10,083 nucleotides of DNA from Nitrospirota bacterium (lineage in GTDB: Bacteria; Nitrospirota; UBA9217), in assembly GCA_021788515.1 (NCBI GenBank), contig JAJYKN010000012.1, forward strand, positions 1-10,083, read 5' to 3'. Under the pieces are notes generated by a model. It worked only from the letters and a program-made list of their open reading frames with translations, was not told the DNA's origin and ran no database searches. This document shows, one piece after another, positions 1,670 to 10,083 of this stretch (the stretch's first letter is position 1; each line of letters begins with the position of its first letter). The translations under genes and the position numbers were made by a program.

Positions 1670-4552
1670 CTAGAACAACACCGGCATCCAGAGGGAGACG
1701 TAGACGAAGGTGTCGCGCTGGACGTCCAGACCTTTGGCAACGACGAGCCTGAACGTGATCGGCAGATAGTACGAGAAATACGTATCGAGCCTTGCCTCGG
1801 CGCCCACGCTGCGCTTGAAATCCGGAGCGTGGAACCCCTTGTCCCAGGCATTGCCTGCCTCGGCGAAGACCGCGCCGTGAAGCCGCCGGAAAAAGATCGG
1901 CGCGTTGCCCCACCCGTTCTCGATGTTCTCGATCGGGAAGCGGTACTCAAGGCTCGCGAGCGCCGCCTTCTGGCCCAGAAAGGCGTTGATGGGATAGCCG
2001 CGCAAAAAGATTGCCTGGCTGTCAACGGGGATGGTGCTGTCTCCGGGGTTGTCGCCGCCCAGTTGGAAGGCGCGCTGCGGGATGACGTCGCCCGAGGATG
2101 TTCCATAGAAGGCCCTGGCCAAGAGCACGTGGTGCTGCCAGGGAAAATCGATGTACTCGTGCCAGTCCGCGGTGTACTTGCTCACGTTGAAATCGCTTCC
2201 GAGCGCTCTGTCGAGCCGCTCGTAACCCAGTTCAATGGTCCGGCCGTTCTCGGGGCTGATGGACAAGCCGAACTGTTCGGCGTTATTGAACTTGTAACTG
2301 ACGCGCCCGGAAATGAGCTCGCCCTGGGCCGGACCGGGGCCCGGAGGGAGCTTCGTGAGCGCCGAAATCTCCTTCCGCCGGTATCCGATTGTCACTTCCT
2401 GCTGGCGCGGGATCGTAAGGAGCGGAAAGACCAGCGACGCATCGATCGTTTTCTCGCGCTGCACGTAGTCTCGTGGGCCCAAAAGTCCGCTGTAGGTGCC
2501 GTCAATGTCCGACGCGGAGAACAGCGCGGTCGGGTAGAGGCCGTCATAGGCATAATTGAAGGAATACCAGGTCCGATGCGTGGTCGGACTGTAGAGGCCG
2601 GTCAACAGATAGGAGTGGCGCTCCACCGCGTCCTGGTTAAAGGTCAGGAAACCCCAGAGGCTTCCGCTTTCCTCGCTCGCGCCGTACCAGGGAAGCCAGA
2701 AGCGCGGATAGAGCGTCGGCAGGGGATTGTAGGGCTTTGTTTTTGTTTCCACCTGCGGTTCGTTGTACGTCATGATTGGGTAGGGATCCTTGAAAGGCTC
2801 CGCCTGCTTCCAGGACGCGGAATCAACGGGCATCGTGTGAAGATCATATCCCTTCGCGCTGTAGGACGCGAACACGATCCTGCTGTTGTCCGGCGAGGGC
2901 GCAGGCGTGAACGCGCCGCCCAGCACGTTCGTTACCTGAAAAATCGTTTTCTTGTCCAGTTCGTAGGCGTAGAGGTTGAAGATGCCCGTGCGGTCCGAGG
3001 AAAAGTAGATGATCCTGTTGTCAGCGCTCCAGACCGCGTTTCCGTCAATGGCGCGGTCATGCATGAGCTCCCGGGTCTTGTTTCCCCTGCTGTCGAGGAC
3101 CCAGATGTCCTTGTACCCTCCGGGCTGCCACACGCCCACGACGATCGATGATCCGTCAGGGCTGTACCGCGGGGTCTCGTACTGGAACTCGCTGTCTCCC
3201 GTCAGATAGACAATGTCCTGTTCCCGCGCTTCCCTCCCCCTGATCGCCGCGAGATCCAGTACGGCGAGCCGGTTCTTGCCAAGTGCATTCGTTACGAACA
3301 AAAGCTTCTTCCCATCCGGCGACGGATAGGGATCCCGGGCGCGAAGACCCTTGGTGATGCGAATCTCCTGCTTCGATGTCAGGTCGTAATAGTAGATGTC
3401 GTTATAGACGTTCGTGTTTCTGACAATCTCGTCTTTCGTGTAGTAGATGCCGCCATTGTCCGGACTCCAGGCAATGCTCTGTCCCGACGAAGTCGTGGAC
3501 GTGGTGTTGTCAACAACCTTGCGGTCTCCGCTCCCGTCCGCGTTCATCATATAGATGCCAGGGAACTTGTCGGCGTTCTGGACCGTGTAGGCGATGCGCC
3601 TGTTGTCAGGAGAAAAAGCCGGCGAGACGTTGATGTAGCCCCGCGAGGTCAAGGCCGACGAGGCTGTCATACCGCGCATGCTCACGTCGTCGCGCACCAG
3701 TCCGTACCTGGTTTTAAGACTGCTCAGCCACTCATCCCATAAATCGGCATAATCCGCATGTAATACGCGCTCTCCGGTTGAATCCACGAGGAACGGCACG
3801 CCGCGACCGCTGTACGCGACGGAGACATCAGCCAGTTTTTCCCTGCCGTACTTCTCCGCGATATACTGCGTAAAGCCCTCGCCGAAGAGGTACGGCACCT
3901 GGCCCGCGGGCCAGGAATCGGGAAAGGACGTGGTCTGGCTCATGCGCGGGAAGCGGTTTTCGAGCACGGCCATGCGGAGGATCATTTCCGAACCAGGGGA
4001 ACGGCCGCGGCCGCCTGAGGTCTCTTCGGTTTCTTCGTAGACGGCAAGGCCCTCGATCATCCAGATGGGCTCGAACTGGTTTGGGAAATAGATCCTGCCG
4101 AAGATGTCCTGGATGATCGCGGGAATTCCCGTGACCATGTCGAGGTGCAGGATGTGGGTGTATTCGTGGGTGATAAGCGTCCGCATCCACTCGTCGTAGA
4201 CCGTCGTGCCGAAGCCGGGTTCGCCCAGGGGCTGCGTGATGAAAAGAACAATATGGTTGTAGGGCACCGGCGTGGTCAGGCCGTTCGTGTCGTCCATGGA
4301 GTCCACGAGAACAATGTCGGTCCTCCCCTTGGGGTCCCACTTGATGCGGGGCACGAGCCGGCTATGCACGTCCTCGGCGATCACCGCGGCCCGCTTTGCG
4401 ATTTCCTCTTCGCCCTGGTGATAATGGATGTCGAAGTGCGGCGTTTCGAGCGTGGTCCAGGTGAAGGAGGGGTCGAATTTGGCGGATGCCGCGGATGCGG
4501 CGAACAAAAGAATGGAGCAGAAGAAGAGGATCTTTTTCAAAACTTCCCCCAC
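1670..4552 (-). CDS. Secreted gluzincin-like domain + TolB-like beta-propeller + Omp85-like outer-membrane barrel
   Basis: A 960-residue envelope protein with three regions. Residues 1-24 are a signal peptide ending ASAASA. Residues about 30-290 look like a peptidase-MA/gluzincin domain: HEYTH at 129-133 supplies two zinc-binding histidines and a catalytic Glu130, and WMIEGLAVYEE at 164-174 supplies Glu167, the expected third ligand 34 residues later. Residues about 305-575 hold six PD40/WD40-like blades with the SPD[GN] signature (AFSPDNRRIA, AWSPDNGGIY, YPSPDGKKLL, RYSPDGSSIV, VWSADNRIIY, APSPDNSRIV), as in TolB. Residues about 610-960 are amphipathic strands resembling the surface-antigen/Omp85 barrel and end in Phe, the usual outer-membrane-protein C-terminus. 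The first start is GTG 4552, without a clear ribosome site. A TTG at 4540 gives a more natural signal peptide (MKKILFFCSILL) and has GGGGGAAG just upstream; the start is unresolved. The gene follows TerC by 53 bases with no terminator seen. Substrate unknown. Confidence 0.88.
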   Translation of the reverse strand: MGEVLKKILFFCSILLFAASAASAKFDPSFTWTTLETPHFDIHYHQGEEEIAKRAAVIAEDVHSRLVPRIKWDPKGRTDIVLVDSMDDTNGLTTPVPYNHIVLFITQPLGEPGFGTTVYDEWMRTLITHEYTHILHLDMVTGIPAIIQDIFGRIYFPNQFEPIWMIEGLAVYEETEETSGGRGRSPGSEMILRMAVLENRFPRMSQTTSFPDSWPAGQVPYLFGEGFTQYIAEKYGREKLADVSVAYSGRGVPFLVDSTGERVLHADYADLWDEWLSSLKTRYGLVRDDVSMRGMTASSALTSRGYINVSPAFSPDNRRIAYTVQNADKFPGIYMMNADGSGDRKVVDNTTSTTSSGQSIAWSPDNGGIYYTKDEIVRNTNVYNDIYYYDLTSKQEIRITKGLRARDPYPSPDGKKLLFVTNALGKNRLAVLDLAAIRGREAREQDIVYLTGDSEFQYETPRYSPDGSSIVVGVWQPGGYKDIWVLDSRGNKTRELMHDRAIDGNAVWSADNRIIYFSSDRTGIFNLYAYELDKKTIFQVTNVLGGAFTPAPSPDNSRIVFASYSAKGYDLHTMPVDSASWKQAEPFKDPYPIMTYNEPQVETKTKPYNPLPTLYPRFWLPWYGASEESGSLWGFLTFNQDAVERHSYLLTGLYSPTTHRTWYSFNYAYDGLYPTALFSASDIDGTYSGLLGPRDYVQREKTIDASLVFPLLTIPRQQEVTIGYRRKEISALTKLPPGPGPAQGELISGRVSYKFNNAEQFGLSISPENGRTIELGYERLDRALGSDFNVSKYTADWHEYIDFPWQHHVLLARAFYGTSSGDVIPQRAFQLGGDNPGDSTIPVDSQAIFLRGYPINAFLGQKAALASLEYRFPIENIENGWGNAPIFFRRLHGAVFAEAGNAWDKGFHAPDFKRSVGAEARLDTYFSYYLPITFRLVVAKGLDVQRDTFVYVSLWMPVLF

Positions 4553-4605
4553 AAGGAAAATAGTGCGACTGCGAATACTCCTATCAGCCCGGACGGACAG
4601 GCTGT

Positions 4606-5310
4606 TTACGCGCGTTCTCCGGAAAGGTCCTTCCTGACCCGGTATCTTCCGATGGCGATCACGGCAAGGGCAGCGACGATCTCAACCGCGTACATGACCG
4701 GCCTTGAAGGCGCGACGAACCTGACGGACACGGGATCGGTCAGGATCATCTCCGCGCCGATCTTGCCCAACAGCGCCGCGCCGATGTAGATGATGGCCGG
4801 GAACTTGTCCATGAGCATCGAGAGCAGGCTGCTCGTGAAGACGATAAAGGGGATGGAAAGCCCCAGGCCGAAGATCAGCAGGAAAAGGTTGCCGTGCGAA
4901 GCGGCGCCCACGGCAAGCATGTTGTCCAGGGCCATGGTGATGTCGGCGATGACGATGAGGCGGACCGCATGCCAGAGCGTTTCCGCCTCCCGGTGAGCTT
5001 CGACCGCTTCCTCGTCCTCGACAAAGAGCTTGACCGCGATCCAGAGGATGACGATGCCGCCCGCGAGCTTGACATAGTTCAGGGTGAGGATCTGCGCCAC
5101 GAAGAACGTGAGCACGACGCGGAGCAGGACGGCAGCGGCGGAGCCGTAGAGGATCCCCTTCCTCCGCTGCGCTTTCGGCAGGCCGCGCACGGCCATGGCA
5201 ATGACCACGGCATTGTCGCCTGCCAAGAGCAGATCGATGAGAACGATGCTGAACAGAGCGGAAAAGAAGGACACATCGAGATGCACGGTTCCGAGCGCAG
5301 ACAAATCCAT
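4606..5310 (-). CDS. TerC-family integral membrane protein (YjbE/YkoY type), putative metal exporter
   Basis: A 234-residue polytopic protein with about seven membrane segments and both TerC family signatures: LLAGDNAVVIAMA (residues 29-40) in the first helix and ITMALDNMLAVGAASHGN (124-141). The acidic and Asn residues in GDN and LDN are the intramembrane residues conserved in the family. A charged loop (VEDEEAVEAHREAE, 97-110) separates the two halves. TerC proteins are linked to tellurite resistance in name, but work on Bacillus homologues points to Mn2+ export and metal loading of secreted enzymes. ATG 5308-5310 is chosen because GAGAGG lies 8 bases upstream; a GTG at 5319 would collide with that site. 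The gene sits between a Ca-type P-type ATPase and an exported metallopeptidase-like protein on the same strand. A strong hairpin plus U7 lies just upstream of its ribosome site, which suggests termination or attenuation control. Confidence 0.93.
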   Translation of the reverse strand: MDLSALGTVHLDVSFFSALFSIVLIDLLLAGDNAVVIAMAVRGLPKAQRRKGILYGSAAAVLLRVVLTFFVAQILTLNYVKLAGGIVILWIAVKLFVEDEEAVEAHREAETLWHAVRLIVIADITMALDNMLAVGAASHGNLFLLIFGLGLSIPFIVFTSSLLSMLMDKFPAIIYIGAALLGKIGAEMILTDPVSVRFVAPSRPVMYAVEIVAALAVIAIGRYRVRKDLSGERA

Positions 5311-5326
5311 GAAAGACACCTCTCAT

Positions 5327-5576: not shown

Positions 5577-8330
5577 TTATGCTTTTTGGCGGCGTTTCAT
5601 GAGCTTTTCGAGCTCTACGGCGAAGAACACAACGGACGAGAGGATGAGCACGATGATGAGCTCGTTCGCGGCAAGCGGCTGTGTCTTGAACACCGGGTTG
5701 AGCGCAGGGACGTAAACGGTCATCAGCTGAAGAACGATTGTGGCGACGACGGTCAAAAACAGCGCCTTGTTCGAAAGAACCCCCTGCTGAAACAGGGACT
5801 TTTTTTCGGAACGAATTGCCATCACATGGCCCAGCTGGAGAAGGCACAGGACCGTAAACACCATGGTCTGCCAATGTGCGTCACCGATGTGGATGGCCCA
5901 CGCCTGGAGCCCGAGGACCACGCCGCCCATGAGCAGACCCACCCAGACCGCATGGATGCCGAGGCCCTGCGCAAACAAACCCTCCTGGGGATGGCGCGGC
6001 GGGCGGCTCATCACGTCCTGTTCTGCCGGCTCCAGGGACAGCGCCAATGCCGGCAGGCCGTCGGTCACGAGGTTGATCCAGAGGATATGGATCGGCTGGA
6101 GCGGGATCGGCAGGCCCAGGAACGGCGCGAGAAAAAGGGTCCAGATCTCGCCGGAATTGGTGGTCAGCAAATACCGGATGAACTTGCGGACATTGTCGTA
6201 GATCTTGCGGCCTTCCTTCACCGCCTTCACGATCGTCGCGAAGTTGTCGTCGAGCAGGATCATGGATGACGCCTCTTTGGCAACGTCGGTTCCCGTTACA
6301 CCCATGGCAATGCCGATGTCCGCGCGCTTTAAGGCAGGCGCGTCGTTTACGCCGTCGCCGGTCATGGCCACGAAGTGCCCCCGGTCCTGGAGCGCCTGGA
6401 CGATCTTGAGTTTCTGCTCGGGTGCAACGCGCGCATAGACCCGGATGGATTCGACGCGCTTTTCGAACTCAGCGAGCGACAGGGCATCGAGCTCTGCGCC
6501 GGTGATGACGGCTTTCGGGTCGTCGGTCTCCAGAACGCCGACGCGCCGTGCGATCGTCCGGGCGGTCAGCGGATGATCGCCGGTGATCATCACCGGGGTG
6601 ATGCCGGCGCTCCTGCATTCCGCGACGGCCTGCTTCGCCTCCTCCCGCGGGGGGTCCATCATGCCCGTGAGGCCGAGCAGGATGAGCCCGGTCTCGACGT
6701 TCTCCGACGAGCGGTCAAGAGGGAGGGCGTCCCAGGTCCGCATAGCGATCGCCATGACCCGGAGCCCGTCAGCGGCGATGCGTTCGCTTTCTTTTGTTAC
6801 CTCGTCCCGGTCCAGGGGCTTGATGCCGTCTTTCGTCAGAACAGCAGTTGACCGCTCAAGCAGCACCTCGACGGCGCCCTTGGTGAAAGAAACGAATCGG
6901 GGACGGGCAGGGACGACGGGGAGACGCGGGGACGCGGGGACGGGGGGAGAAAGCGATACCAGGACATCGGTGGTAATTTCATGGAACGTCGTCATCAGCT
7001 TGCGGTCGGAGTCGAAGGGCAGCTCCGCCACGCGGGGATAGGCGGTTTCGAGAGTTCTTTTTTCGAAGCCGCTGTCCCGGGCGATCACCAGGAGCGCTGC
7101 TTCCGTCGGATCGCCGGTGACATTGCCCGATGCGTCAACGCGGGCGTCGTTGGACAGGGCGAGGGCGGTGAAGAAGAGCTGATGGGGAGACGGGTCCACA
7201 GGGAGACGCGGAGCACGAGCATCCTCAGCAAATGCGGCAGTTGTTTCGTCTTGTCCCCGCGTCCCCGCGTCCCCGCGTCGCTTCTCCGTCCGCCCGTCCA
7301 CCCACATTTCCTCCACCGTCATCTTGTTCAGCGTGAGGGTGCCGGTCTTGTCCGAGCAGATATAGGTGACGGAACCGAGGGTTTCGACTGCAGGCAGCTT
7401 TCGGACCAGGGCGTTTTGTTTCACCATCCTGCGCGCGCCCAGGGCGAGGGAGATGGTGACGACAGCGGGCAGGGCTTCGGGAATGGCGGCAACAGCGAGG
7501 CTTACGGCAACGAGGAAGATGTGCACCGCGGGCTCGCCGCGAAGCAGTCCGCCGGCAAACACGATGGCGCAGATGAAGAGGACGGCCAGGGAGATCCGTT
7601 TGCCGAAATGGGCGAGCCGCTTTTGCAGGGGCGTCTTTGCCTCGCCCTGTTCCTGGAGCAGGGACGCAATCCTGCCGAGCTCCGTGTCCATGCCCGTTGC
7701 CGTCACCACGCCCGTGCCGCGGCCGTAGGTGACGAAGGTCCCTTTGTAGAGCATGTTCTTCCGGTCGCCCAGGGGGAGCGATTCAACGGGCAAAGCGTTC
7801 GTGTGCTTCTCGATTGCGAGGGACTCGCCGGTAAGCGCGGCCTCTTCCGCTTTCAGGCGCGCGGCCTCGATGATGCGCAGGTCCGCGGGGACCATGTTGC
7901 CCGCCTCAAGCAGGACGATGTCCCCGGGCACGAGCTCCCCTGCGGGGATCGTGACGTGTTTCCCGTCACGGAGGACCAGCGCGCTCGCCGCGGCCATCTT
8001 CTTGAGCGCCGCCATGGCTTTCTCGGCCCGGTATTCCTGGATGAATCCGAGAACGGAGTTCAGGATGAGTATGACGATGATGGCGATGGTGTCGGAGGGT
8101 TCGCCGATAAAGCCGGAGACGATCGCCGCGGCGATCAGAACCAGGATCATGAAGTCGCTGAACTGGCCCAGGAACATCATGAGGGCTGTTTTACGGGCTT
8201 TCTCGACAAGCTCGTTCGGGCCGTACTGAGCGAGGCGTGATCGGGCTTCGGCAGCACTGAGGCCGGAGGCAGAGGACGCGAGAGCAGCGAAGATTTCTGC
8301 AACGTTTCGTTGATGGGCGAGAGCAGGCAT
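5577..8330 (-). CDS. Type II (SERCA/PacL-like) Ca2+-type P-type ATPase
   Basis: A 917-residue pump that uses ATP to export a divalent cation across the inner membrane. Landmarks in order: N-terminal cation-ATPase domain (about 1-45); M1-M2 (about 48-98); TGES actuator loop at 167-170; M4 with IPEALP at 283-288; CSDKTGTLT with phospho-Asp327; KGA at 484-486 in the nucleotide-binding domain; TGDGVNDAPALK at 657-668; then M5-M10 to the end. Residues matching the SERCA site II ligands are kept: Glu285 in M4, Asn725 and Glu728 in M5 (TTNSGE), and Asn753, Thr756 and Asp757 in M6 (NLVTDGLPA). This favours Ca2+, although some bacterial relatives move Mn2+. Start ATG 8330 has AAAGGA seven bases upstream. 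Two odd in-frame Pro/Arg-rich inserts (about residues 347-381 and 456-478), made of GC-rich repeats, lie in the nucleotide-binding domain. The gene is divergent from the CBM48/ECF genes. Confidence 0.95.
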   Translation of the reverse strand: MPALAHQRNVAEIFAALASSASGLSAAEARSRLAQYGPNELVEKARKTALMMFLGQFSDFMILVLIAAAIVSGFIGEPSDTIAIIVILILNSVLGFIQEYRAEKAMAALKKMAAASALVLRDGKHVTIPAGELVPGDIVLLEAGNMVPADLRIIEAARLKAEEAALTGESLAIEKHTNALPVESLPLGDRKNMLYKGTFVTYGRGTGVVTATGMDTELGRIASLLQEQGEAKTPLQKRLAHFGKRISLAVLFICAIVFAGGLLRGEPAVHIFLVAVSLAVAAIPEALPAVVTISLALGARRMVKQNALVRKLPAVETLGSVTYICSDKTGTLTLNKMTVEEMWVDGRTEKRRGDAGTRGQDETTAAFAEDARAPRLPVDPSPHQLFFTALALSNDARVDASGNVTGDPTEAALLVIARDSGFEKRTLETAYPRVAELPFDSDRKLMTTFHEITTDVLVSLSPPVPASPRLPVVPARPRFVSFTKGAVEVLLERSTAVLTKDGIKPLDRDEVTKESERIAADGLRVMAIAMRTWDALPLDRSSENVETGLILLGLTGMMDPPREEAKQAVAECRSAGITPVMITGDHPLTARTIARRVGVLETDDPKAVITGAELDALSLAEFEKRVESIRVYARVAPEQKLKIVQALQDRGHFVAMTGDGVNDAPALKRADIGIAMGVTGTDVAKEASSMILLDDNFATIVKAVKEGRKIYDNVRKFIRYLLTTNSGEIWTLFLAPFLGLPIPLQPIHILWINLVTDGLPALALSLEPAEQDVMSRPPRHPQEGLFAQGLGIHAVWVGLLMGGVVLGLQAWAIHIGDAHWQTMVFTVLCLLQLGHVMAIRSEKKSLFQQGVLSNKALFLTVVATIVLQLMTVYVPALNPVFKTQPLAANELIIVLILSSVVFFAVELEKLMKRRQKA
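6897..6965. repeat. GC-rich repeat block inside the ATPase gene (insert 2)
   Basis: The plus strand carries two tandem GCGGGGAC units (6926-6941) flanked by related GGGGAGAC and GGGACG variants. In the ATPase this encodes a Pro/Arg/Val-rich stretch (about residues 456-478: SLSPPVPASPRLP and following) that interrupts the conserved run between FHEITTD and VSFTKGA. It is the inverted counterpart of the three GTCCCCGC units at 7253-7276. The reading frame is kept. Confidence 0.7.
7184..7292. repeat. Imperfect palindromic GC-rich repeat inside the ATPase gene (insert 1)
   Basis: The right arm holds three perfect tandem GTCCCCGC units (7253-7276) followed by GTCGCTTCTCCGTCCGCCCGTCC. The left arm (7184-7215) reads as an approximate reverse complement (GGGAGACGGG then GGGAGACGCGGAG). 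About 35 bases between them could form a loop. It encodes about residues 347-381 of the ATPase, low-complexity Arg/Gly/Asp/Pro-rich sequence between the conserved MWVDG and HQLFF segments. In-frame insertion of a palindromic element resembles the behaviour of Rickettsia palindromic elements; no homology to them is claimed. Confidence 0.65.
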
Positions 8331-8480: not shown

Positions 8481-8831
8481 ATGTCCTTCTCTAAATGCGC
8501 AACAGGGCTTTTCCTCGTGCTCATACTTGCCGCCTGCGCGCCGAAGTCGCTTGCGCCAGTGATGGTGCATGACGGCGTCCGCTTTTCCTATTCCGGGCCA
8601 AGGGCGACGAGTGTTTCGATCGTCGGGAGCTTCAACCATTGGGACCCGGATAAAGACCGGCTCACGGGACCGGATCGCAACGGCGTCTGGACCGTTGTCT
8701 TGCCGCTTCCTCCCGGGCATTACGAGTACCGTTTTGTCATTAACGGCAAGGAATGGGTCCTGGACCCGTCGGCCCCGTCCGTGGATGACGGGTTGGGGGG
8801 CTTCAATTCCCTGTTCGTCTATGAACCATAA
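8481..8831 (+). CDS. Small lipoprotein consisting of one CBM48 (AMPK-beta/glycogen-binding-like) domain
   Basis: A 116-residue protein: signal peptide MSFSKCATGLFLVLI, lipobox LAAC with Cys19 as the lipidation site, and Ala at +2, which favours outer-membrane sorting. Residues about 32-116 are a single CBM48/isoamylase-N early-set fold: SIVGSFNHWDPD (47-58), GVWTVVLPLPPGHYEYRFVINGKEWV split by the hinge at PPGHY (68-93), DPSAP (95-99), and a final GLGGFNS (104-110). Compared with the AMPK beta domain, the positions of the two sugar-stacking tryptophans (Trp54 in FNHW, Trp92 in GKEW) and the late Asn109 are kept; the glycogen-contacting Lys is Arg (YRF). There is no catalytic domain, so it is a binding or scaffold protein. 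I chose ATG 8481 because it gives the complete lipoprotein signal; reading frames from 8310 or 8454 add a non-signal extension. The ECF sigma gene follows after 53 bases. Confidence 0.88.
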   Translation: MSFSKCATGLFLVLILAACAPKSLAPVMVHDGVRFSYSGPRATSVSIVGSFNHWDPDKDRLTGPDRNGVWTVVLPLPPGHYEYRFVINGKEWVLDPSAPSVDDGLGGFNSLFVYEP

Positions 8832-8844
8832 ACTCAAAGTAACC

Positions 8845-8870
8845 TGTAACCTTTTTCCCGGCCATTCGTC
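8845..8870 (+). promoter_or_regulatory. Candidate ECF-type promoter upstream of the sigma factor gene
   Basis: TGTAAC (8845-8850), a 16-base spacer, then CGTC (8867-8870). This matches the general ECF layout of an AAC-containing -35 and a CGT-containing -10 (for example TGAAAC-N16-CGTA for Bacillus SigW), with one change in each half. The AACC of the -35 is part of a short direct repeat, GTAACC-T-GTAACC (8839-8851). It lies directly before the sigma gene, as expected for autoregulation, but the leader would be only about 8 bases. Confidence 0.4.
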
Positions 8871-8884
8871 TTATAGGTACAACA

Positions 8885-9451
8885 ATGAGAAACAATGAGC
8901 AGTCATCAGACGAAGAGGCCATTATCCGGAAATGCCTGGGCGGAGATGCGGATTCCTATGCCGTCCTCGTGGACCGGTATAAGACGATGATCTACAACGT
9001 GGCCTACCGGGTCGTGGGAGACGAAGAGACGGCAAAGGACCTTGCCCAGGACAGCTTTATTGCCGCCTACAACGGCCTCGGCCGGTTCCGGTTCGGATCG
9101 AAATTTTCGTCCTGGCTCTACAGCATCGTTCTGAACAAATGCCGGGACCATCTGCGGACGACGAAAGAAACGGTTTCGACCGACGAGATTGCGGACATCA
9201 GGCAGGACAGCGGCTTTTCCCCGGAACAGGCCGCATCAGCAGGCCAAAGCAGGGACTTCCTGCAGCAGGCATTGGGACAGCTCCCGGAGGAATACCGCGA
9301 GGTGCTTGTTCTGAAGCACATTGAGGAACTCGATTATCAGGAGATAGCAACGATCACCGGCGCGGGCATTTCGGCGCTCAAGGTCAGGGCGCACCGGGGA
9401 CGGGAGATGCTCAAAAGGATCCTCGAGGGATCAGGGGTGAACCATGGATAA
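8885..9451 (+). CDS. ECF (group 4) sigma-70 family RNA polymerase sigma factor
   Basis: A 188-residue cytoplasmic transcription factor with the two-domain ECF layout. Region 2 spans about 24-92: YAVLVDRYKTMIYNVAYRV, DEETAKDLAQDSFIAAY (the -10-binding/core-binding helices) and SSWLYSIVLNKCRDHLR. A 30-residue linker follows. Region 4 spans about 125-178: LGQLPEEYREVLVLKHIEELDYQEIA, then the helix-turn-helix and recognition helix GISALKVRAHRGREMLKR; this replaces the commoner S.GTVKSR with GISALKVR. There is no region 1 or 3 and no C-terminal extension. ATG 8885 has only a weak AGGT about 7 bases upstream. The next gene overlaps its stop (ATGGATAA, 9444-9451), so the two are almost certainly translationally coupled, which is the usual sigma/anti-sigma arrangement. 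Targets probably include its own operon. Confidence 0.96.
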   Translation: MRNNEQSSDEEAIIRKCLGGDADSYAVLVDRYKTMIYNVAYRVVGDEETAKDLAQDSFIAAYNGLGRFRFGSKFSSWLYSIVLNKCRDHLRTTKETVSTDEIADIRQDSGFSPEQAASAGQSRDFLQQALGQLPEEYREVLVLKHIEELDYQEIATITGAGISALKVRAHRGREMLKRILEGSGVNHG

Positions 9452-10083
9452 AGAACGGGAGATCATACACAAGATCCTCGACCAGGAGGCAGGCGAGGAC
9501 GAGAAGAAAAGCATTGTCCGGAGCATGGAAACAGACTCCGGGCTGAAGGCGGAGTTCGATGCTCTTACGAACACGGTCCGCCTGCTGAAGGAGGGCGAGC
9601 GTCGCGAGCCGCCGGCGTTCTTTACCGCCGAAGTGATGAGAAAACTGCCGAAGCAGGCGGCGTCCCGCTCAATGCTCGATCGGATCAGGGAATTTCTGTT
9701 CAACAGCCACGTACTCCGCTGGAACATGGCAACGGCGCTCGCTCTGGCCGTTATCGTGCTTGTGGCCCTCGTGACTGTCCCCCGCGTGCACCGCGAGCCC
9801 ATGATGAACGCGGCGGGACCGGCGGAGTCCGCTGCTACCGTGCGGCTCACCTTCTATTCGCCCCAGGCCCGCACGGTTTCGGTGGCCGGCGACTTCAACA
9901 AGTGGAAGGCCGACGCCGACGTGATGAAAGGGACCGACGGCATGTGGAGCATTAATCTCAAGCTCAAGCCCGGCGTCTATTCCTACAGCTTCGTGGTGGA
10001 CGGAAAGTCATGGGTTGCTGACCCGGGTGCGGAAACATATGAAGATGACGGATTCGGTTCACGGAACGCCGTGTTGAGGGTGA
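9444..10083 (+). CDS. Anti-sigma-like single-pass membrane protein with an extracytoplasmic CBM48 domain, open at the window edge
   Basis: ATG 9444 overlaps the sigma gene by 8 bases, and 213 codons are visible. Residues 1-90 are a charged, mostly helical cytoplasmic segment (MDKEREIIHKILDQEAGEDE, LKAEFDALTNTVRLLKEGE, FFTAEVMRKLP) shaped like an anti-sigma domain, but with no cysteine and no HxxxCxxC zinc motif. Residues 95-113 (MATALALAVIVLVALVTVP) form one membrane helix, giving an N-in/C-out topology. After a short Ala/Pro linker, residues 132-213 are a CBM48 fold: VSVAGDFNKWKAD (145-157), MWSINLKLKPGVYSYSFVVDGKSWV in two parts around PGVY (167-191), ADP (192-194) and GSRNAVLRV (205-213). 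Trp154, Trp190 and Asn208 match ligand-contact positions of AMPK beta. Position and topology suggest it holds the sigma factor inactive until an envelope signal reaches the CBM48. The frame is still open at 10083; the terminal tga is out of frame. The domain looks complete, so the stop is probably close. Confidence 0.85.
   Translation, partial: MDKEREIIHKILDQEAGEDEKKSIVRSMETDSGLKAEFDALTNTVRLLKEGERREPPAFFTAEVMRKLPKQAASRSMLDRIREFLFNSHVLRWNMATALALAVIVLVALVTVPRVHREPMMNAAGPAESAATVRLTFYSPQARTVSVAGDFNKWKADADVMKGTDGMWSINLKLKPGVYSYSFVVDGKSWVADPGAETYEDDGFGSRNAVLRV

Follow-up and report, generated by a model that had tools for sequence, protein, structure and literature searches.

We analyzed a 10,083-base stretch of DNA from a Nitrospirota bacterium (hereafter, the window), which encodes near its right-hand end a lipoprotein, an extracytoplasmic function (ECF) sigma factor, and a membrane protein carrying a CBM48 carbohydrate-binding domain. 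Our favored reading, held with moderate confidence, is that positions 8885-10083 encode an autoregulated ECF pair of the SigW-RsiW type, in which glycan binding by the outer CBM48 domain would free the sigma factor to transcribe its own operon and a few distant genes. The features that bear on this reading are as follows.

8481-8831, + strand: CBM48-only lipoprotein (the companion), 116 amino acids, with a signal peptide, a lipobox LAAC (assigned by eye), and a CBM48/AMPK1_CBM domain at residues ~31-112
8845-8874, + strand: putative autoregulatory ECF-type promoter, with a -35 element TGTAACC (8845-8851), a spacer, and a -10 element CGTCTTAT (8867-8874)
8885-9451, + strand: ECF sigma factor, 188 amino acids, matching Sigma70_r2 (E 1.2e-18) and Sigma70_r4_2 (E 1e-14); closest solved relative, Bacillus subtilis SigW
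9444-10083, + strand: anti-sigma protein with one transmembrane segment and a C-terminal outer CBM48 domain; 213 codons lie before the contig breaks off
9444-9668, + strand: class I anti-sigma domain, residues 1-75 (helices 2-12, 18-30, 32-50, and 58-67; RsiW match)
9726-9782, + strand: transmembrane segment, residues 95-113 (model helix 95-111)
9828-10082, + strand: CBM48 domain of the anti-sigma, residues 129-213 (AMPK1_CBM E 2.2e-11, CBM_48 E 3.6e-10)

The sigma/anti-sigma pair and its promoter

The three genes lie in series on the + strand, and both the reading frames and the Pfam domains agree with the first-pass annotation, which had described a CBM48 lipoprotein, an ECF sigma factor, and a one-helix CBM48 protein, the last two genes overlapping by 8 bases (9444-9451). 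Contig C6, from an assembly of 2.15 Mb, 438 contigs, and 74% completeness, makes up the entire window; because it stops at 10083, the last gene lacks its 3' end. A same-genus genome holds a copy of the anti-sigma that is 97% identical and two residues longer. The sigma factor belongs to the ECF class, as only Sigma70_r2 and region-4 models exceeded the Pfam cut-off, with no sigma3; it scored 105.6 bits against TIGR02937 (cut-off 42.9), and its best solved match was B. subtilis SigW (PDB 5wuq, E 1.1e-29). Residues 6-73 of the membrane protein matched RsiW (5wuq/5wur) at E 0.0027 from the single sequence and 5.9e-9 from a profile of 24 relatives; the sole other match covering the N-terminal part, among 51 profile matches, was a tropomyosin fusion (E 0.0056). 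Since RsiW is the partner of SigW in the same co-crystal that gave the best match to the sigma factor, this result argues for an anti-sigma identity, as had been proposed, and binding of the two proteins is expected by homology. The NCBIfam model NF052375 ("anti-sigma factor") also matched, at 9.9e-8, a score far under its cut-off.

Class I anti-sigma domains, the group to which RsiW, RseA, ChrR, and RskA belong, are described as a three-helix bundle, a linker, and a fourth helix, and ~44% of them lack a zinc motif (PMC7406223). Judged by sequence and model, the N-terminus of the last protein has this class I arrangement. Its 213 residues contain no cysteine and therefore no zinc motif; the Hx3Cx2C motif of zinc-containing RsiW proper is absent. 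Hydropathy reached 2.56 over the 19 residues 95-113, with the next best stretch at 0.54. The AlphaFold model, built from a 48-row alignment, had a mean pLDDT of 81.3 and placed a beta-sandwich at residues 131-212, so that profile and fold together establish CBM48 membership and uphold the earlier assignment of an outer CBM48 domain; with a pTM of 0.43, the relative placement of domains in the model is uninformative.

Relatives were gathered in a scan of one genome per species, from which the best 80 of 437 were kept; because these loci were picked by similarity to the anti-sigma, with profiles built from their relatives, all 80-locus counts below describe best cases. A broader view comes from 148 genomes chosen as relatives, of which 75 gave matches at E 0.001; many of these matches covered just CBM48, and in 27 genomes a match took in both ends of the anti-sigma. 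Seventy of the 80 loci are labelled Nitrospirota, including those on the complete chromosomes of Nitrospira moscoviensis and Nitrospira defluvii; one is labelled Nitrosospira and groups with Nitrospira in the tree. The other nine (two Rokubacteria, two Acidobacteria, four Gemmatimonadota, and one Syntrophobacteraceae) are metagenome bins, so their names may be wrong. Gene order is conserved well above chance: a sigma gene lies directly upstream of the anti-sigma in 76 of the 77 loci that leave space for one, in two of the three that do not, and in eight of the nine outside Nitrospirota; a companion CBM48 is present in 73 of 80; and a gene that we call c2 follows downstream in all 73 loci with room (profile E <1e-6, within 3 kb). 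The pair is thus kept beyond close relatives, contrary to the outcome that the first-pass annotation had named as refuting its proposal.

An ECF-type element of this kind stands immediately ahead of sigma in the window's family. The -10 element of the putative promoter ends 10 nt upstream of the sigma ATG, so the sigma mRNA may be nearly leaderless; in loci with a TTTAC-type element, the median distance from CGTC to the start is 75 nt. Across loci L096-L175, the pattern GTAAC/TTTAC/GGAAC/GCAAC/TGAAC/GAAAC, 15-17 bases, CGTC occurred within 250 nt upstream of sigma in 62 of 76 loci and in 38 of 1416 background windows. The motif had been defined after inspection of upstream regions from many of the same genomes, which counts against our reading. 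With up to one mismatch, GTAACCTTT-N12-CGTCTWAT gave 26 sites in 12 of 14 family genomes and none in the reversed control. In the window's own genome, there are two exact sites, one in the window and one at C51:609-638 before a small secreted charged protein; allowing up to three mismatches added no further site there, while the reversed control gave two.

We sorted the 26 sites by product, in some cases by eye. Twelve lie at sigma operons of 11 genomes, a two-contig pair in one genome probably being a single site. Six precede genes for small, charged, secreted proteins with a terminal Arg or Lys, five of them with a Gly-rich tail; two precede DUF2202 proteins (Pfam was run on one), and one precedes a DUF5666 lipoprotein. 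In the remaining five cases, some of them unclear, three sites are associated with a large lipoprotein rich in Gly and Met, a secreted protein whose repeats look propeller-like by eye, and a DUF3795 protein; one more stands 430 nt from its gene, and another falls at the end of a contig. Low-complexity tails that are Gly-rich, frequently also Met-rich, and have Arg or Lys as the last residue are common to several operon products and distant-site products (L035 1258-2797, L070 761-1141, L084, and L093), and the small L070-type proteins carry DGTG repeats.

The companion lipoprotein and the rest of the locus

The domain of the companion matched AMPK1_CBM at E 8.7e-13 and CBM_48 at E 4.5e-12, and companions are of the lipoprotein type, by a heuristic, in 70 of 73 relatives' loci. 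The 80 loci divide into 23 with the order companion-sigma-anti-sigma, 50 with sigma-anti-sigma-companion, and seven that are companion-free. An ECF-like motif lies upstream of the companion in just 1 of 22 companion-first loci, so there the companion is probably no sigma target. The suggestion that the lipoprotein is a regulated output is accordingly unlikely for this arrangement, which is that of the window; in the sigma-first loci (50 of 80), the companion lies downstream of sigma and may be co-transcribed.

A 64-row tree of CBM48 domains (26 of 81 anti-sigmas, 25 of 74 companions, 12 orphans, and AMPK beta1), built on few columns, grouped the anti-sigma domains together (95/87) and the anti-sigma and companion domains together (95/92). 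Companions formed one group only weakly (54/54), and orphan CBM48 proteins, which lack a signal peptide, stood apart. By this tree, the companion and anti-sigma domains are ancient paralogues. The shared ancestry, together with the position of the companion outside the sigma promoter here, favors a receptor role for it.

In relatives, the operon extends past the anti-sigma. The same-genus locus L035 continues with c2 (299 amino acids), a c5 protein, and a beta-barrel whose BBP2_2 match (E 2.1e-5) narrowly passes the cut-off. Contig C169 of the window's own genome starts inside a c2 gene and proceeds through a small charged protein, c5, and the barrel, at 93-96% identity to L035; from this similarity, C169 is probably the continuation of the window. 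Three c2 proteins gave no Pfam match at E 0.001. The c2 model, which is confident over residues 31-250 (block means 91-98), consists of 12 consecutive helices and a disordered tail and returned no Foldseek match at E 0.001; c2 is thus predicted to be a helical-repeat protein. Among 295 genomes drawn from the phylum, with the best eight candidates scored in each, 51 had c2 (12 in family f1, 32 in f9, and seven in others), which makes it common, not universal. In 44 of the 80 loci, a c3-type barrel gene (Phenol_MetA_deg in L049) lies upstream of sigma.

A second sigma/CBM48 anti-sigma pair, whose anti-sigma is 68% identical, lies on contig C174 (L036) of the same genome. Behind it, at 3095-4720, come genes for a cytochrome-like protein (CxxCH by eye), a protein rich in Met, and a further Phenol_MetA_deg barrel, which might hint at metals. 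A Nitrospira locus, L068 (8911-10475), holds a decayed module: the companion and c2 are open, pieces of the anti-sigma CBM48 lie in two different frames, and no sigma and no c3 were found there. Within the window, a Ca2+-type P-ATPase (5577-8330, - strand) is divergent from the lipoprotein gene and is the same neighbor seen in L039, L045, and L061. Farther left on the - strand are a TerC-family membrane protein of the YjbE type (4606-5319; TIGR03717 above cut-off) and a 960-amino acid protein that combines TolB-like propeller repeats with a C-terminal barrel resembling that of Omp85 (1670-4552).

Ligand and signal

Anti-sigma residues W154, W190, F204, and N208 correspond to W100, W133, L146, and N150 of AMPK beta1, with S182 at the position of K126. 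On the carbohydrate face, W154, W190, and N208 are near-invariant in both anti-sigmas and companions, so that three of the four AMPK beta contacts (W100, K126, W133, and N150) are retained in the anti-sigmas. In our favored reading, the N-terminal helix bundle would keep sigma in the cytoplasm, while the anti-sigma would cross the inner membrane once and display its CBM48 domain outside; the paralogous lipoprotein, encoded upstream of the sigma promoter in this lineage, would reside in the same compartment. One or both CBM48 domains would bind a glycan, most likely with an alpha-glucan-like surface, and binding would inactivate the anti-sigma via regulated proteolysis or conformational change; the companion might compete, deliver, or cap. 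Freed sigma would transcribe its own operon from the 8845-8874 promoter along with a few distant genes, and the cell would then export c2, small charged proteins, and, in the window's family, the beta-barrel protein. Architecture, homology, synteny, promoter element, and candidate regulon were computed; sigma-anti-sigma binding (by homology), ligand class, signal direction, and proteolysis are what we infer.

We advance tentatively a more specific form of this proposal: a Gram-negative, ECF-class CBM48 receptor with two parts, the lipoprotein and the anti-sigma ectodomain. Both would bind one and the same extracytoplasmic ligand, an alpha-glucan or else a glucan-like polymer that the cell or its neighbors produce, and binding would induce the export of helical-repeat and Gly-tailed surface proteins in Nitrospirota, cultured nitrite oxidizers among them.

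Several results weigh against the favored reading. All 81 anti-sigmas have Met, Ser, or Ala at the K126 position, and K126Q in AMPK beta1 is reported to have abolished glycogen binding (PMC6274970); plant AKINbeta2, however, is reported to bind starch without K126 and N150 (PMC4032982). As a feruloyl esterase is also found among CBM48 structures, the ligand cannot be read from the fold. We recognized no glucan-metabolism gene in the set of promoter targets, part of which was assessed by eye; one weak, sub-threshold Glucodextran_B match appeared (E 0.02). A covariation analysis of sigma with anti-sigma, on 73 pairs with an Neff of 38, yielded no clear signal. PrsW, the site-1 protease of RsiW, was found in 0 of 14 family genomes, and we therefore reject release of the PrsW type as the default, on a search that did not extend to RseP or DegS. 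The first-pass annotation is supported as to the anti-sigma and its outer CBM48 domain, and the replacement of K126 weighs against plain glycogen sensing.

An alternative idea is that the CBM48 pair reads a glycan other than an alpha-glucan, such as the cell's own capsule or matrix polysaccharide, and monitors matrix or envelope build-up, not food or storage glucan. The altered K126 position on an otherwise retained platform, the feruloyl esterase precedent, and candidate targets consisting of secreted charged or repeat proteins and operon beta-barrels, with no glycosidase recognized, all fit this idea. We nonetheless judge it unlikely, as the nearest sequences and folds (AMPK beta, the pullulanase 5ot1, and GlgB) are all linked to alpha-glucans, and orphan CBM48 proteins of the same phylum, though a separate group, adjoin glgC and treY in five loci. 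At the K126 position, the 14 orphans listed have Lys (12) or Arg (2), read by eye. Among nine orphan loci, glgC-like and treY-like neighbors occur in five, all of the Nitrospira family (L183-L187; NCBIfam confirmed glgC in L183 and L187 and treY in L187), and no neighbor is common to the other four. The orphan of L183-L187 is possibly a glycogen-associated protein. Together with the K126 data, these neighbors indicate that the relatives sit with cytoplasmic glucan genes and that the paired exported branch altered one contact residue. The L183-L187 orphans also adjoin a TetR-like gene (by eye; no NCBIfam match).

A less probable account casts the anti-sigma CBM48 as a protein-protein module capped by the companion or c2, whose mislocalization upon failed envelope assembly would free sigma, much as RseB acts on RseA. 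Such an account draws on the joint retention of two paralogous CBM48 kinds, the rarity of a recognizable sigma promoter before first-lying companions (1 of 22), and c2, which is as constant as sigma and has the predicted helical repeat of a common binding scaffold. It sits poorly with the near-invariance of W154, W190, and N208 in both kinds, which would exceed the needs of the fold, and with L068, which still has the companion and c2 even though the anti-sigma is reduced there to out-of-frame CBM48 pieces and a sigma gene was not found. Very improbable, in our view, is an ordinary envelope-stress switch whose CBM48 merely anchors it to a polysaccharide layer and carries no signal. The result for PrsW, a candidate release protease (0 of 14), and the uncharacterized promoter targets would suit it, but platform residues are conserved across the phylum and beyond, stimulus perception is generally ascribed to the domains joined to class I anti-sigma domains (PMC7406223), and the outer domains of RsgI proteins bind polysaccharides (PMC4711584).

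Implications and comparison with known systems

Our results suggest that cells of many Nitrospirota may read a glycan outside the membrane to turn on a secreted protein set. If so, Nitrospira and its relatives, which are environmentally central, gain a testable envelope signaling pathway with a defined promoter and output; the secreted c2 family, three members of which lack a Pfam match, gains a role; and carbohydrate-sensing anti-sigmas extend from clostridial RsgI to an RsiW-type ECF pair. The module is present on the complete chromosomes of N. moscoviensis and N. defluvii, and because both are grown in culture, the question is addressable in cultured organisms.

B. subtilis SigW-RsiW (5wuq and 5wur) provides the closest solved relatives that we found for both the sigma factor and the N-terminal anti-sigma domain. 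The window's anti-sigma differs in lacking the zinc motif and in belonging to a family in which PrsW was not found in 14 of 14 genomes, and RsiW is not known to carry a CBM48. Relative to the glycogen-binding CBM48 of AMPK beta (1z0m/1z0n and 4yee), the window's domains are extracytoplasmic, have K126 replaced, and are joined to an anti-sigma or a lipid anchor. The ECF/anti-sigma systems of Bacteroidota polysaccharide utilization, with their outer-membrane receptors, are Gram-negative, ECF-class, and glycan-triggered, as proposed here; their signal passes via a TonB-dependent receptor touching a FecR-like anti-sigma, not via a CBM48 on the anti-sigma. Escherichia coli RpoE-RseA-RseB likewise combines a sigma factor, an anti-sigma with one transmembrane segment, and a separate envelope regulator, although RseB is not known to be a paralogue of the RseA outer domain or a glycan module. 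Among the open-licence papers listed, titles and abstract starts yielded no CBM48 anti-sigma or Nitrospira anti-sigma of this kind, which is weak evidence.

The earlier statement of knowing no characterized system of this design is too strong, given Clostridium thermocellum RsgI1-6, which are reported to have a cytoplasmic N-terminal anti-sigma part, a membrane segment, and a C-terminal surface carbohydrate-binding domain (CBM3, PA14, or GH10), with sigI1 transcribed by its own sigma factor (PMC4711584). Signaling by RsgI6 is reported to involve autocleavage, RseP, and ClpXP (PMC12203970). The SigI-RsgI1 to RsgI6 systems resemble the window in an autoregulated alternative sigma factor, a mostly overlapping anti-sigma gene, one membrane segment, and a polysaccharide-sensing design, the last proposed for the window. 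They differ in bearing CBM3, PA14, GH10, or CBM42 instead of CBM48, in being Gram-positive, and in controlling an enzyme-rich regulon. SigI is not known to be an ECF sigma factor, nor the N-terminus of RsgI to be a class I anti-sigma domain, and SigI-RsgI is not known to have a paralogous CBM lipoprotein. No RsgI model appeared among the families listed for the anti-sigma (E 0.1), nor SigI among the best 25 of 104 for the sigma factor. By sigma class, anti-sigma domain, and CBM, as set apart by their descriptions, the window pair is probably a lineage distinct from RsgI.
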